Positions 27,681-39,659 of a DNA stretch of 64,000 nt are shown here, one piece after another. The notes beneath the pieces are model-generated. The model was given only the letters and a program-made list of their open reading frames with translations, searched no databases and had not been told where the DNA came from. Numbering within the stretch: position 1 is the stretch's first letter; each line of letters starts with the position of its first letter. The position numbers and the translations under genes were made by a program. Source of the DNA: Flavimobilis rhizosphaerae (GTDB lineage Bacteria; Actinomycetota; Actinomycetes; Actinomycetales; Cellulomonadaceae); NCBI RefSeq assembly GCF_014852685.1, contig NZ_JACZDF010000007.1, positions 62,001 through 126,000 on the forward strand, in the 5' to 3' direction.

Positions 27681-28667
27681 TCAGAGCAGGTCGCGCCGGA
27701 GGTCGGCGGCCGAGCGCGGCGAGAGCAGCGCGGGCGGCACGTCGAGGAGCGTCACCGCGCCCGTCTCGCCGCGCGCCTGGAGCCGCGCGACCGCGCGCGC
27801 CGAGGCGACGAGGACGGCCGCGGTGAGCTCGGGGTTCGACTCGAGCCGGAGCGAGTACTCGACGACCTGGCGCGTCCCCGCGGAGGTCTCGGCGGCGCGG
27901 ATGACGAAGCCGCCGTGGGGCATGCCGGCGTGGTTGCGGGCGAGCTCGTCGGCGTCGACGAACGTCACGGTCGTGTCGTAGTCGGCGAAGTAGTCGGGCA
28001 TCGTGACGATCGCCTCGCGCACGGCGGCGCCGTCCGCGCCCGGCTCGAGGACGACGAAGCACTCGCGCGTGTGCTTCTCGCGCGTCGTGAGCGTCGGGCG
28101 CGCACCCGAGCGCACGGCGTCGACGGCGGCCGGCACGGGGTGCGTGTACTGGACGCCGGCCGCGACGCCCGGCACGCGCCGGATCGCGTCGGAGTGGCCC
28201 TGCGAGAGGCCGCGGCCCCAGAACGTGTAGGTGTCGCCATCGGGCAGGAGCGCCTCGCCGTAGAGGCGGTTGATCGAGAAGAGCCCCGGGTCCCACCCCG
28301 CCGAGATCAGCGCGACGTTGCCGCCCGCGCGCGCCGCGGCGTCGACGCGCTCGAAGTGCTCGGGGATGCGCGCGTGCGTGTCGAACGAGTCGACGACGGG
28401 CAGGAAGCGCGCGATCGCGGGCGTCTGCTCGGGCAGGTCGCTGCGGGAACCGCCGCAGCAGATCGCGACGTCGATGCCGTCGGCGTCGCTCTCGAGCGCG
28501 TCGAGAGGCCGGACTCTCGCGCCGGGGGTGACGGGGGTGACTGCGGCGGGGTCGCGCCGTGTGTAGATGCCGACGAGCTCGGCGTCGGCGGTCTTGAGGA
28601 GCGCGGCCTCGACGCCGCGGCCGAGGTTGCCGTGGCCGACGATCGCGATGCGCAGGGGGCTGGTCAT
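27681..28667 (-). CDS. ddh: meso-Diaminopimelate dehydrogenase
   Basis: Catalyses the NADPH-dependent one-step route from tetrahydrodipicolinate to meso-diaminopimelate for lysine and cell wall. The 328 residues match the Corynebacterium type: IAIVGHGNLGRGVEAAL (NADP fold), VVDSFDTHARIPEHF, SAGWDPGLFSINR, and TFWGRGLSQGHSDAIRRVPG. The gene stands alone, facing away from the GH94 unit. Its presence adds a bypass to the acetylase or succinylase pathway; which pathway else is used cannot be seen here. Confidence 0.9.
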   Translation of the reverse strand: MTSPLRIAIVGHGNLGRGVEAALLKTADAELVGIYTRRDPAAVTPVTPGARVRPLDALESDADGIDVAICCGGSRSDLPEQTPAIARFLPVVDSFDTHARIPEHFERVDAAARAGGNVALISAGWDPGLFSINRLYGEALLPDGDTYTFWGRGLSQGHSDAIRRVPGVAAGVQYTHPVPAAVDAVRSGARPTLTTREKHTRECFVVLEPGADGAAVREAIVTMPDYFADYDTTVTFVDADELARNHAGMPHGGFVIRAAETSAGTRQVVEYSLRLESNPELTAAVLVASARAVARLQARGETGAVTLLDVPPALLSPRSAADLRRDLL

Positions 28668-28771: not shown

Positions 28772-28788
28772 ACTGTTAGGCTTCCTAA
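28772..28788. promoter_or_regulatory. Perfect palindrome upstream of the chitobiose unit, possible sugar-repressor operator
   Basis: TGTTAGG-CTT-CCTAACA, 7-bp perfect arms, 78 nt before the start at 28866 and in the divergent gap with ddh. TTAGG/CCTAA arms resemble operators of ROK-family sugar repressors (family knowledge). No regulator gene is adjacent. Confidence 0.45.
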
Positions 28789-28865
28789 CAAAGACCGGCC
28801 GTCGGCCGCCGAAGGTCGCTGACATTTCTGATGTCCCAGGCCGAGCACGGGAAGCGAGACCAACG

Positions 28866-31058
28866 ATGCACAAGCCCAACCCGAACGCGGCGCCGTCCGG
28901 CGGTGCCTCAGCCGTCGTCCTCGCTGCGGGTGCCGACGACGAGTCCCGTGCGCTCCTCACGAGCACGCTCGGCGACGCGACCGTCGTCGAACTGGCCCTC
29001 GCCAACGTGCGCGCAGTGCTCCCCGCCGACCGCATCGTCGTCGTCGTCGCCCAGGGCGACACCGAGATCCGCGCACTCCTCGGCGACGACCTCACCTACG
29101 TCGAGCAGGACGCCCCCCTCGGCACCGGCCACGCGCTCACGTGCGCGCGGGCTGCGATCCCCGCCGACACCTCGGCGCTCCTCGTCGCCTACGCCGACAC
29201 CCCGCTCCTGCGCCCCGAGTCGCTCCGCGGCCTGCTCAACCGCCACGACCTGCTCGGGGCCGACCTCGCGCTCCTCACGGCCGTCGTCGAGAAGCCGCTG
29301 CCGTACGGGCGCGTCACGCGCGACGCCTCCGGCCAGATCACCGGCATCGTCGAGCGCTCCGACCTCACCCCGTCGACCGACGACGCCCTCGAGATCAACG
29401 TCGGTGCCTACGCGGCCGCCCCCTCGACGATCCTCGCCGAGGTCGACGCGCTCGCCGGCGCGGGGGAGCACCGCCTCACGGTCGCCGTCCGACGCCTCAT
29501 CGACGACGGAGCCAAGGTCGTCACCTACAAGATCGTCGACACGGACGAGGTCCAGGGCATCAACTCCCGCGACGAGCTCGACGCTGCCGCCGACATCGTC
29601 CTGCGCCGCCTCTTCATGCCACGCAAGAACACCGACACACACATCGTCTTCGGTACGGGCGGCTGGCGCGCGGTCATCGGCGAGGGCTACACGCTCGGCA
29701 ACGTCCGCAAGCTCTGCCAGGCCATCGCGAACGAGGCGACCCGCAAGGGCATCGACCACCTCGGCGTCGTCATCGGCGGCGACCGCCGCTTCCTCTCGCG
29801 CGAGTCGGCCGAGGCCGCCGCGGAGGTCTTCGCCGGCAACAACATCCCCGTGACCCTCCTGCCGGACGACGTCCCCACCCCGCTCGTGACATTCGCCGCG
29901 CCCTACCTCGGCGCCGCGTACGGCATCATCATCACGAGCTCGCACAACCCGCCCGAGTGGAACGGCATGAAGGTCTTCCGCGCGGACGGCTCCCTGCCGC
30001 TCGATGACGAGACCGACCGCTTCCAGGACGAGGCCAATGCGTTGCGCGCCGCCGAGGTCATCACCCTCGACCTCGACCTCGCCCGCAGGGCCGGCGTCGT
30101 CGTCGACCGCACCCTCACGGAGCCGTACGTCGACGCGATCGAGGAGATCATCGACATCGACGCCGTCCGCGGCTCGGGCCTGCGCGTCGTCGTCGACCCC
30201 ATGTACGGCACGTCGCAGCTGACGCTCGGCACGATCCTCACCGACATGCGCGTGCGCGCCGAGTTCATCCACGCGACCCACAACCCGCTCTTCGGCGGTG
30301 TCGCCCCCGCCCCGGACCTCGAGCGGCTTTCGGCGCTCATCCAGATGATCAAGAACGGCGACGGTCGCTACGACCTCGGCATGGCGACCGACGGCGACTC
30401 CGACCGCATCGGCATCGTCGACGAGACCGGCGAGTACATCTCGACGAACGACCTCCTGCTGCTCCTCTACTGGTACCTCCACGAGGTCCGCGGAGAGAAG
30501 GGCGGCGTCGTCCGGAACATCGCGACGACCCACCTGCTCGACCGCCTCGCCGCGCACTTCGGCGAGAAGTCGTTCGAGTGCAAGGTCGGCTTCAAGCACG
30601 TCATCGCGGGCATGGAGGAGATCGGCGCCGTCCTCGGCGGCGAGTCCTCGGGCGGCCTCACCATCCGCGGCTGGATCCTCGGCAAGGACGGCATCTTCGC
30701 GTGCGCTCTCGTCGCCGAGATGCTCGCCCGCACGGGCAAGCGCATCTCCGAGCTGCGCGAGATGATCTACGAGATCACGGGACGCCTCCACACCGAGGAA
30801 GCGGGCGTTCCCGCAACCCCGGACATGCGCATCGCCGTCCCGCGCCGCCTCGCAGCCGCGCCCCTCACGCACGTCGGCGCGTACCCCGTCGTCGGGATCG
30901 ACCACACCGACGGCACGAAGATCCTCCTCGAGAACGACAACTGGGCACTCCTGCGGTTCTCGGGGACCGAGCCCGTCCTGCGGATGTTCGTCGAGGCGGA
31001 CACCCCCGAGAAGGCCACCGAGCTCATGGACTGGCTCAAGGGTTTCGTCACCGCCTGA
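28866..31058 (+). CDS. Fusion of a nucleotidyltransferase-like domain with a phosphohexomutase
   Basis: A 730-residue two-domain protein. Residues 18-250 follow the GlmU-type sugar nucleotidyltransferase fold (VVLAAG, APLGTGHAL, YADTPLL, LPYGRV, EINVGAYA), but the signature that should follow VVLAAG (GxGTRMxSxLPK) is replaced by ADDESRALLTSTLGD, so the nucleotide-binding Arg and Lys are missing. Residues about 257-730 are a complete alpha-phosphohexomutase: FGTGGWRAVIG, active Ser in TSSHNP, metal loop DGDSDR, sugar loop GGESSGG and phosphate loop RFSGTEP. The next gene, 56 nt away, encodes a chitobiose-type phosphorylase, so the mutase probably converts GlcNAc-1-phosphate to GlcNAc-6-phosphate. 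Whether the first domain is catalytic or regulatory is open. Confidence 0.8.
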   Translation: MHKPNPNAAPSGGASAVVLAAGADDESRALLTSTLGDATVVELALANVRAVLPADRIVVVVAQGDTEIRALLGDDLTYVEQDAPLGTGHALTCARAAIPADTSALLVAYADTPLLRPESLRGLLNRHDLLGADLALLTAVVEKPLPYGRVTRDASGQITGIVERSDLTPSTDDALEINVGAYAAAPSTILAEVDALAGAGEHRLTVAVRRLIDDGAKVVTYKIVDTDEVQGINSRDELDAAADIVLRRLFMPRKNTDTHIVFGTGGWRAVIGEGYTLGNVRKLCQAIANEATRKGIDHLGVVIGGDRRFLSRESAEAAAEVFAGNNIPVTLLPDDVPTPLVTFAAPYLGAAYGIIITSSHNPPEWNGMKVFRADGSLPLDDETDRFQDEANALRAAEVITLDLDLARRAGVVVDRTLTEPYVDAIEEIIDIDAVRGSGLRVVVDPMYGTSQLTLGTILTDMRVRAEFIHATHNPLFGGVAPAPDLERLSALIQMIKNGDGRYDLGMATDGDSDRIGIVDETGEYISTNDLLLLLYWYLHEVRGEKGGVVRNIATTHLLDRLAAHFGEKSFECKVGFKHVIAGMEEIGAVLGGESSGGLTIRGWILGKDGIFACALVAEMLARTGKRISELREMIYEITGRLHTEEAGVPATPDMRIAVPRRLAAAPLTHVGAYPVVGIDHTDGTKILLENDNWALLRFSGTEPVLRMFVEADTPEKATELMDWLKGFVTA

Positions 31059-31114
31059 CCGGCACGTCCCACCACTGACCACAGACCACCCCTCACGAAG
31101 GACCATCACCCACG

Positions 31115-33529
31115 ATGAAGTACGGCCACTTCGACACTGCCGTCGACGAATACGTGATCGAGCGCCCGGACGTCCCGGTCTCCTGGACCAACTACCTCGG
31201 CTCGAAGAACCTCTGCACGGTGCTCTCGCACAACGGCGGGGGCTACTCGTACTACAAGAGCTCGCAGCAGGGTCGCATCACACGCTTCCGTCCGAACAGC
31301 GTGCCCCTCGACCGCCCCGGTCACTACGTCTACCTCCGGGACGACGCTGACGGTGACTTCTGGTCCGTCTCGTGGCAGCCGGTCGGCAAGCCGCTCGAGG
31401 GCGAAGGCGCAGCCAGCTACACGACGCGGCACGGGCTCGGCTACTCGACGTTCGAGGCGTCGTACAAGGGGATCGATGCGTCGCAGACGATCTTCATCCC
31501 CGTCGACGACGACGTCGAGATCTGGGACACGACCGTGACGAACGCGTCCGATGTCGAGCGGACGCTCACGGTCGGCTCGTACGTGGAGTTCTCGTTCCAC
31601 ACGATCACGATCGACAACCAGAACCTCCAGATGTCGCTGTACTCGTCGGGCACGTCCTACGAGGACGGCATCATCGAGTACGACTTCTACTACGAGCCGT
31701 GGACCTATCACTTCTTCGCGTCGTCGGAGGAGCCCAGCTCGTACGACTCGCTGCGCGAGAACTTCATCGGCCCGTACCGTGACGAGGCGAACCCCATCGC
31801 CATCGAGCGGGGTGAGGGGTCGAACACGAGCGCGACGACGCAGAACCACTGCGGCGCGCTGCTCCACAAGGTCACGCTCGCGCCAGGCGAGAGCAAGCGA
31901 CTCGTCTTCATGCTCGGCTACGGCTCGCGCGACGTGGCCGGCCGCGCCATGAAGGCCAAGTACTCGATCCCCGCGAACGTCGACGCCGAGCGTGCCCGCT
32001 TGCGGGCCTTCTGGCGCGCCAAGCAGGACAAGCTGCAGATCCGTACGCCCCACGAGGGCATGAACACGATGATCAACTCCTGGACGCTGCTCCAGGCGGA
32101 GACGTGCGTGCAGTGGTCGCGCTTCGCGTCGTTCGTCGAGGTCGGCGGGCGTGCCGGGCTCGGCTACCGCGACACGGCGCAGGACGTCATGAGCGTCATC
32201 CACTCCAACCCGACGAAGACGCTCCAGCGCATCGTCGAGCTGCTCCGCGCGCAGGTGTCCTCGGGCTACGGGCTCCACCTCTTCGACCCGGAGGCGTTCA
32301 ACCCGGACGCCGAGCCGCTCCCCGACGTCCCGTCGCCGACGATCGTCCCGCGCGGCAATGCGGCCGACCTCATCCACGGCCTCGAGGACACGTGCTCGGA
32401 CGACCACCTGTGGCTCGTGCCGTCGGTCGTCGAGTACGTCAAGGAGACGGGCGACCTCGCGTTCCTCGACCGCGTCATCCCCTTCGCGGACGGGCCCGAG
32501 GCCACCGTGTACGAGCATCTCGTTGCGGCGCTCGACTTCTCGTCGAAGCAGATCGGCGCGAACGGCGTCGCCCTCGGCCTGCGCGCCGACTGGAACGACT
32601 GCCTCAACCTCGGCGGCGGCGAGACGTCGCTCGTGACGTTCCTCCACGCGTGGGCCATCGGCGCGTTCCTCGAGATCGCCCGCCCGCTCGGGCGCACGGC
32701 CGACGTCGAGCGCTTCGAGGCCGAGCGCGAGCGCATCGCCAAGGTTGCCGACACCCAGCTGTGGGACGGCGAGTGGTGGATCCGCGGCTACACGCGCGAC
32801 GGCGTGAAGATCGGCTCGAAGGAGAACGAGGAGGGCAAGATCTTCCTCGAGCACCAGGCGTGGCCCGTCATCGCCGGCATCACCTCCCAGGAGCGCGGCA
32901 TCACGTCGATGAACTCCGTGACGAAGCTCCTCGGCTCCGAGTACGGCTCGCACCTCAACTGGCCCGCGTTCACGAAGGTCGACGACACGGTCGGCTTCGT
33001 CACGCGCGTCTACCCGGGCATCAAGGAGAACGCGGCGATCTTCTCGCACCCGAACGCCTGGCCGATCATCGCCGAGGCGCTGCTCGGGCGCGGTGACGAG
33101 GCGGTTGCGCTCTACGACGCGATCCTCCCGTACAACCAGAACGAGAACATCGAGGTCCGTGGCGCCGAGCCGTACGCCTACGTCCAGTTCATCTACGGCC
33201 GCGACCACGAGTGGTTCGGCAAGGCCCAGAACCCGTGGCTCACGGGGACGGCCGGCTGGATGTACACGGCGGCCACGAAGTACATCCTCGGTGTGCGCCT
33301 CACGCTCGACGGCCTCGTCGTCTCCCCGTCGATCCCGAAGGACTGGGACGGCTTCGAGGTGACGCGTCAGTGGCGCGACGCGACGTACGAGATCGTCGTG
33401 ACGAACCCGAACCACGTGAGCTCGGGCGTCGCCTCGATCACGGTCGACGGTGTCGACCTGGACCCGACGGCAGCGATCCCGGCCGCTCCGGCTGGCTCGG
33501 TCGTCAAGGTCGAGGTCGTCCTCGGCTAA
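31115..33529 (+). CDS. GH94 phosphorylase, N,N'-diacetylchitobiose phosphorylase-like
   Basis: 804 residues covering the full GH94 plan. As far as I can recall those sequences, similarity to Vibrio ChbP is higher than to cellobiose phosphorylase along the whole chain: MKYGHFDTAVDEYVI, SWTNYLGSKNLCTVLSHNGG, FRPNSVPLDRPGHYVYLRDD, FVEVGGRAGLGYRDTAQDVM, ADWNDCLNLGGGE (catalytic Asp region), FVTRVYPGIKENAAIFSHPN. ChbP splits (GlcNAc)2 with phosphate to GlcNAc-1-phosphate and GlcNAc. There is no signal peptide, so the disaccharide must be imported, and no transporter is nearby. It ends its operon at a terminator. Confidence 0.8.
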   Translation: MKYGHFDTAVDEYVIERPDVPVSWTNYLGSKNLCTVLSHNGGGYSYYKSSQQGRITRFRPNSVPLDRPGHYVYLRDDADGDFWSVSWQPVGKPLEGEGAASYTTRHGLGYSTFEASYKGIDASQTIFIPVDDDVEIWDTTVTNASDVERTLTVGSYVEFSFHTITIDNQNLQMSLYSSGTSYEDGIIEYDFYYEPWTYHFFASSEEPSSYDSLRENFIGPYRDEANPIAIERGEGSNTSATTQNHCGALLHKVTLAPGESKRLVFMLGYGSRDVAGRAMKAKYSIPANVDAERARLRAFWRAKQDKLQIRTPHEGMNTMINSWTLLQAETCVQWSRFASFVEVGGRAGLGYRDTAQDVMSVIHSNPTKTLQRIVELLRAQVSSGYGLHLFDPEAFNPDAEPLPDVPSPTIVPRGNAADLIHGLEDTCSDDHLWLVPSVVEYVKETGDLAFLDRVIPFADGPEATVYEHLVAALDFSSKQIGANGVALGLRADWNDCLNLGGGETSLVTFLHAWAIGAFLEIARPLGRTADVERFEAERERIAKVADTQLWDGEWWIRGYTRDGVKIGSKENEEGKIFLEHQAWPVIAGITSQERGITSMNSVTKLLGSEYGSHLNWPAFTKVDDTVGFVTRVYPGIKENAAIFSHPNAWPIIAEALLGRGDEAVALYDAILPYNQNENIEVRGAEPYAYVQFIYGRDHEWFGKAQNPWLTGTAGWMYTAATKYILGVRLTLDGLVVSPSIPKDWDGFEVTRQWRDATYEIVVTNPNHVSSGVASITVDGVDLDPTAAIPAAPAGSVVKVEVVLG

Positions 33530-38888: not shown

Positions 38889-39659
38889 TCAGAGGCGAGC
38901 ACCGCCCGCGAGGGCCGCAGCGCCGACGATCCCGGCACGGTTGCGCAGCGTCGCCGGGACGATGGGCGCCGTGAGGTCGAGGAGCGGCAGGAAGCGTTCG
39001 TGGTGCTTGGAGATGCCGCCGCCCACGACGAGGAGGTCGGGGGAGAAGAGCATCTCGAGCGTCGAGTAGTACCGCTGGAGGCGTTCGGCCCACTGGGGGT
39101 AGGAGAGGTCCTCGCGCTCGCGCGCCGACTCCGCGGCGCGCGACTCGGCGTCGAATCCGTCGATCTCGAGGTGACCGAGCTCGGTGTTCGGCACGAGCGT
39201 CCCGTCGACGATGATCGCCGAGCCGATGCCGGTGCCGAGCGTCGTGACGATGATCGTGCCGGCTACCCCGCGGGCTGCCCCGAAGAGTGCCTCGCCGTAG
39301 CCGGCCGCGTCCGCGTCGTTGACGGCGTGCACGGGCCGGCCGAGCGCGTCGGAGAGGACGTCGGAGAGGTGGACGCCCGTCCACGACTCGTCGAGGTTCG
39401 CGATGAACGTGATGCGCCCGTGGTGGATCGGCCCGGGGAACGCGACTCCGACGGGTGTCCCGGACGGCAGGTCGAACCCGTCGACGAGCTCGCGGACGAC
39501 GGCCGCGACGGCGGCCGGGGTCGACACGCCGGGGGTGGGGATGCGGACGCGGTCCGCGGTGAACTCGCCCGTCGTGAGGTCGACGGGGGCGCCCTTGATG
39601 CCTGATCCGCCGATGTCGATGCCGAAGGCGATCTGGGGGGTGGTGTCGAGGTGGCTCAT
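38889..39659 (-). CDS. ppgK: Polyphosphate glucokinase
   Basis: Phosphorylates glucose from polyphosphate or ATP; an actinobacterial ROK-fold kinase. 256 residues: [19 protein letters not shown] (phosphate 1), [12 protein letters not shown], the catalytic Asp in [25 protein letters not shown] (phosphate 2), ELGHLEIDG and [12 protein letters not shown]. The ATG at 39659 overlaps the map stop (ATGA), so the two are coupled. In this saccharolytic setting it would feed free glucose into glycolysis. Confidence 0.92.

Follow-up and report, generated by a model that had tools for sequence, protein, structure and literature searches.

A chitobiose phosphorylase gene paired with a proposed GlcNAc-1-P mutase that carries an apparently disarmed GlmU-like domain in Flavimobilis rhizosphaerae

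Why should a phosphohexomutase encoded next to a chitobiose phosphorylase carry, in the same polypeptide, a domain of the GlmU type? The question is raised by two genes of Flavimobilis rhizosphaerae located at positions 28866–33529 of the stretch of contig NZ_JACZDF010000007.1 that we analyzed (64,000 nucleotides, hereafter the window). The first-pass annotation had placed a two-gene unit at this site, and open reading frames and Pfam domains bear out its coordinates (Table 1). The first gene, the fusion gene, starts with an ATG and is separated by 56 bases from the second, which codes for a GH94 protein. Pfam detected the four PGM_PMM domains (I–IV) and NTP_transf_3/NTP_transferase in the fusion protein, and together with NCBIfam delimited a GlmU/NTP_transferase-type region and a full phosphohexomutase with the approximate limits given in Table 1. 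The GH94 protein matched PF17167 (553 bits) and PF06165 (262 bits), i.e., the catalytic and supersandwich domains. Chance is excluded as the origin of the pair because E-values of the domain matches reach 5e-166 and the two genes are kept together across other genera and phyla. We also rejected an artefact of gene calling or assembly, since the fusion recurs in many independent assemblies belonging to three phyla.

Table 1. Features of the gene pair and its upstream region (positions in the window; residues of the encoded proteins)
Feature	Position	Strand	Basis
Perfect inverted repeat, candidate operator	28774–28790	+	Exact match; function putative
Fusion gene: GlmU-type pseudo-nucleotidyltransferase + phosphohexomutase (proposed GlcNAc-1-P mutase), 730 aa	28866–31058	+	Pfam/NCBIfam
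Nucleotidyltransferase-like domain, residues 14–250; retained ligand residues Q81, G86, D111, G148, E163, N178, N233	28905–29615	+	Sequence, hhalign, AF2/Foldseek
Degenerate signature loop, residues 23–33 (ADDESRALLTS), where GlmU has GxGTRM(x)nK	28932–28964	+	Alignment, model
Phosphohexomutase, residues 258–728	29637–31049	+	Pfam PGM_PMM I–IV, invariant columns, tree, fold
Phosphohexomutase motifs: TSSHN (phospho-Ser S359), DGDSDR (509–514), GESSG (592–596), RFSGTEP (697–703)			
GH94 chitobiose phosphorylase (ChbP), 804 aa; catalytic Asp495, Val632	31115–33529	+	Pfam, tree, active-site residues

Sequence comparisons support placing the GH94 protein in the chitobiose phosphorylase (ChbP) group and not with the cellobiose phosphorylases (CBP). 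Its best solved relative is the ChbP of Vibrio proteolyticus (1v7v, 1038 bits), while every other solved GH94 enzyme, CBPs included, gave at most 515 bits. In a tree of 51 sequences it fell in an actinobacterial group inside the ChbP family, to which the enzymes of V. furnissii and V. proteolyticus also belong, and CBP was found far away on a very long branch. The alignment showed D495 and V632 (D492 and V631 in V. proteolyticus) to be invariant in the window protein and in 48 of 48 other ChbPs; D492 is the catalytic Asp, residue roles being those of the V. proteolyticus structure. The position of V632 is occupied by Tyr in CBP, including the other GH94 protein of this genome, a clear CBP with 1552 bits to 2cqs. 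The prior assignment as ChbP-like, for which grouping with CBPs had been named as the refuting outcome, has therefore held at the level of bit scores, tree and active-site residues. On the same grounds, and given the separate CBP in the genome, the reading of the window protein as a CBP was rejected. The PDB entry 8bou, although deposited as an N,N'-diacetylchitobiose phosphorylase, gave 515 bits to the window ChbP, no better than the CBPs, and may represent a different GH94 specificity.

The mutase half of the fusion protein has all the motifs of the alpha-D-phosphohexomutase superfamily (TxSHN, DGDxDR, GExSG and RxSGTEP) besides the four domains, so that the complete phosphohexomutase formerly described in the gene preceding GH94 is confirmed. 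The model of the full-length fusion retrieved only mutases among the 50 Foldseek matches listed. In the mutase tree the fusion mutases formed one clade (100), which joined the stand-alone mutases adjacent to ChbP and those of GH112 lacto-N-biose phosphorylase clusters in a single clade of 45 sequences (99). All 45 share GESSG and RFSGTEP, in contrast with the GEQSG of the GlmM-type mutase of this genome and the GEESG of other actinobacterial relatives; the genome encodes three phosphohexomutase-family proteins in addition to the fusion. The GH112 clusters were found in three genomes of the same order (L056–L058 in G188, G211 and G179) and their mutases are 43–46% identical to the fusion mutase. 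Besides a nucleotidyltransferase with intact GLGTRM and a regulator of the ROK family, they encode a GHMP kinase, and the combination of GH112 and GHMP kinase would be expected to represent another phosphorylase pathway flowing through GlcNAc-1-P. GlcNAc-1-P, as a common substrate, would account for both the ChbP and the GH112 setting.

The nucleotidyltransferase domain is the part for which the first reading needs correction. Its GlmU-like character stands, both in sequence (it matches GlmU among PDB sequences with 1e-27, and hhalign gave a probability of 99.7% against the GlmU of the same genome) and in fold: the AF2 model of the domain alone has a pLDDT of 90.9, its 37 best Foldseek matches are all GlmU, and the TM-scores by query length against the best of these are 0.82–0.86. 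However, the catalytic signature loop is absent, which had gone unnoticed. The GxGTRM...K loop is missing in all 26 fusions of our alignment, with R18 and K25 (E. coli numbering) gone. The numbering follows the E. coli GlmU row of the alignment, and the GlmU of this genome (L029, LAAGQGTRMRSATSK), canonical and with the Arg and Lys of its signature loop kept, yields the same residue mapping. Compared with GlmU, the actinobacterial fusions have a loop shortened by three to four residues and the remaining fusions one of unrelated sequence, and most fusions lack a Lys anywhere in the loop. The loop of the window protein was modelled by AF2 as a short helix (residues 25–31). As a positive control, the separate nucleotidyltransferases of the GH112 clusters keep GLGTRM...K. 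A motif of the GXGXRXnK type is the pyrophosphorylase signature (PMC5982138).

Unlike the loop, the rest of the pocket is largely retained. The metal ligands D105 and N227, the uridine contacts Q76 and G81, and G140 are kept in 26 of 26 fusions, and the GlcNAc contacts E154 and N169 in 20 of them; contacts of this kind with uridine, ribose and GlcNAc have been described for the GlmU of Mycobacterium tuberculosis (PMC9105790). The six remaining fusions, all from family f20 (L014–L019), have the GlcNAc-binding stretch (the E154–N169 region) deleted, which counts against ligand sensing in that branch and can be seen as a second step of either decay or re-use. For close pairs of sequences, the dN/dS was 0.06–0.16 in the domain vs. 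0.01–0.09 in the mutase (more distant pairs gave 0.42–0.56, values that are less reliable). The domain is therefore under purifying selection, weaker than that on the mutase but clear, and close-pair values so far below 1 disfavor the idea of decaying junk. Because the phosphate-handling loop is missing, the domain is predicted not to make UDP-GlcNAc. The route to this nucleotide sugar that had been proposed as an outlet of the pathway is not supported, given the loss of GxGTRM and the catalytic Lys in 26 of 26 fusion domains, both of which the genome's own GlmU retains, and we would warn against annotating these fusions as bifunctional UDP-GlcNAc synthases.

How widely is the arrangement found? 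We surveyed 80 ChbP loci from named genomes and found the fusion next to ChbP in nine, a stand-alone mutase in 53 and neither in 18, several of the latter being cut off by contig ends; none of the 80 had both. The stand-alone mutase directly followed ChbP in 51 of the 80 loci, including those of Vibrio (V. furnissii), Photobacterium and Lachnospiraceae. Within the order, 297 genomes were examined and four families (f1, f9, f13 and f20) had members with the full fusion; the genomes with the fusion also encode ChbP. Extending the sample to 397 genomes of the phylum brought mutase-only relatives and no further fusions. The named carriers are Sanguibacter, Cellulosimicrobium, a Cellulomonas sp., a Propionibacteriaceae MAG, three Chloroflexota MAGs and one Alphaproteobacteria MAG (MAG taxonomy as deposited), i.e., the fusion clade spans Actinomycetota, Chloroflexota and one alphaproteobacterial MAG. 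The fusion precedes ChbP in all cases but one (L072, where it follows it), and the two genes are adjacent wherever the neighborhood could be read, with a single exception. In genome G220 the fusion (L047, contig C22) is followed by a ComEC-like sequence, read from the DNA, and ChbP (L144) lies on contig C13, 103 bases from the end of that other contig. Since the sister genome G263 shows the usual fusion-ChbP order, the most likely explanation is an assembly misjoin at a GC-rich stretch. No larger conserved cluster was seen around the pair; across families only these two genes are kept together.

Taken together, these data make it probable that we are dealing with a two-gene cytoplasmic unit for the catabolism of the chitin disaccharide, in which a pseudo-nucleotidyltransferase domain regulates or stabilizes the mutase. 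Imported (GlcNAc)2 would be split by ChbP with inorganic phosphate into GlcNAc-1-P and GlcNAc, and the fused mutase would convert the GlcNAc-1-P into GlcNAc-6-P. The other half would be phosphorylated to GlcNAc-6-P by a kinase, proposed to be of the ROK type, and both would be burned via NagA and NagB. One ATP would thereby be saved per disaccharide. The flow from chitobiose to GlcNAc-6-P, already part of the first reading, appears well founded in view of the ChbP grouping, the complete mutase and the mutase clade. The genome has four GH18 (chitinase-family) genes, a NagB match above the curated cut-off and a NagA-like match below it (185 of 225 bits). A cluster elsewhere in the same genome (L170, G000:C15:238500-248500) contains a ROK protein, an ABC substrate-binding protein, nagB and a second ROK protein, and is a candidate for the importer and kinase of chitobiose/GlcNAc. 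A search of the genome for the chitobiose-specific binding protein (TIGR03851) gave no match above the cut-off.

Upstream of the fusion gene there is an inverted repeat, TGTTAGG-CTT-CCTAACA, that overlaps a TAGGCT box resembling a -10 element and may act as an operator. It is the only exact one in the window, where 0.18 would be expected with up to three mismatches, and the genome of 3.06 Mb has a single copy of its core (TTAGGNNNCCTAA). The same repeat precedes the fusion in G197, a sister genome, and three genomes of family f9 have a form with wider spacing (GTTAGG-N7-CCTAAC) at this place. We searched for a set of genes co-regulated through this palindrome and found none, the exact core being unique in the genome. 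The divergent gene that shares this upstream region (27681–28667, minus strand) codes for a meso-diaminopimelate dehydrogenase (TIGR01921, 411 bits), and a ROK-family match located ca. 6 kb after ChbP (39159–39626, minus strand) is a possible regulator.

The role of the N-terminal domain admits several explanations. We prefer that the mutase has retained it as a module for ligand binding or for structure, and more precisely that sensing of UDP-GlcNAc (or GlcNAc-1-P) tunes the enzyme, setting how much chitin-derived GlcNAc-1-P would go to catabolism and how much would reach the wall by way of the intact GlmU encoded separately. In its most specific form, bound UDP-GlcNAc would switch the fused mutase, so that GlcNAc-1-P from chitin would be burned as long as the cell has ample wall precursor and would remain available to GlmU when the precursor runs short; we put this forward tentatively, as one possibility that may well prove wrong, UDP-GlcNAc as the signal being a guess modelled on GMPPA. 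A purely structural appendage, serving folding, dimerization or docking to ChbP and with no ligand role, is likewise conceivable but not what we would expect. It would fit the faster evolution of the domain compared to the mutase, the adjacency of the gene to ChbP and the persistence of the f20 domain despite the lost GlcNAc contacts, but the uridine and metal residues have been kept almost completely over three phyla, beyond what a scaffold needs.

That the domain might after all be active, making UDP-GlcNAc from ChbP-derived GlcNAc-1-P and bypassing the kinase and GlmM/GlmU, we regard as unlikely. The GlmU fold and the retention of D105/N227 and Q76/G81, with E154/N169 in 20 of 26, speak for it, and 23 of the 26 fusions have an Arg about five residues beyond the place of R18, which leaves room for a remodelled catalytic loop. 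Nevertheless, GxGTRM and Lys 25 were found in none of the 26, mostly with no Lys in the loop at all, the loop is modelled as a helix, the f20 members have lost the sugar lobe and an intact GlmU is encoded elsewhere in the genome. Less likely still, and very improbable in our opinion, is that the unit handles another disaccharide (e.g., cellobiose or a GlcNAc-containing heterodisaccharide) with the mutase acting as a general phosphoglucomutase. GH94 specificity can change through few residues; however, the ChbP active-site residues are conserved in 48 of 48 sequences, the genome has a separate CBP and three other phosphohexomutase-family proteins, and the mutase carries a clade signature common to GlcNAc-1-P pathways.

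Chitin ranks with the most abundant polymers, and organisms that use it by phosphorolysis save ATP. The flow from (GlcNAc)2 through GlcNAc-1-P to GlcNAc-6-P has already been proposed (PMC4814513; PMC7700177), and combining ChbP with a mutase for GlcNAc-1-P is known both as a pathway idea and as a gene pairing, ordinary by itself. V. furnissii (L113) has the same phosphorylase family, a GESSG/RFSGTEP mutase and the same predicted flow, but its mutase, of ca. 470 aa, is encoded after ChbP and lacks a nucleotidyltransferase domain, whereas in the window the mutase gene comes first and its product includes the GlmU-like domain. Only the covalent fusion, the coupling in one polypeptide that the first-pass annotation had pointed to, appears to be undescribed: the mostly open-access literature searched contained no account of a fusion linked to ChbP or of the lost loop. 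From the uridyltransferase of GlmU, with which they share the fold, the metal and uridine residues and mostly the GlcNAc pocket, the fusions differ in the lost loop (26 of 26), in having no left-handed beta-helix acetyltransferase domain and in being joined to a mutase instead. The GH112 clusters also combine a glycoside phosphorylase with a relative of the same mutase, but their nucleotidyltransferase, with its loop intact, is encoded by a gene of its own, and they include a GHMP kinase. SCO1388 of Streptomyces coelicolor likewise has a nucleotidyltransferase and a phosphohexomutase (phosphomannomutase) in one chain; it is, however, of the GDP-mannose pyrophosphorylase type, with GXGXRXnK intact and no link to a glycoside phosphorylase in that description (PMC5982138), while the window fusion has lost the loop. 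The best working model is GMPPA, an inactive paralogue of GDP-mannose pyrophosphorylase, which binds GDP-mannose and acts as an inhibitor of GMPPB (PMC11228364), i.e., a non-catalytic nucleotidyltransferase that binds the product nucleotide sugar, as the domain of the fusion may do. GMPPA is a separate subunit that regulates a paralogous pyrophosphorylase, whereas the fusion domain shares its chain with its partner, a mutase. A conserved and apparently disarmed GlmU domain sits on the enzyme that would decide if GlcNAc-1-P coming from chitin is burned. Should this domain sense UDP-GlcNAc, bacteria would have a regulatory pseudo-nucleotidyltransferase, a valve of the GMPPA kind placed where chitin catabolism and peptidoglycan synthesis meet, that would link chitin feeding directly, at the molecular level, with wall building.
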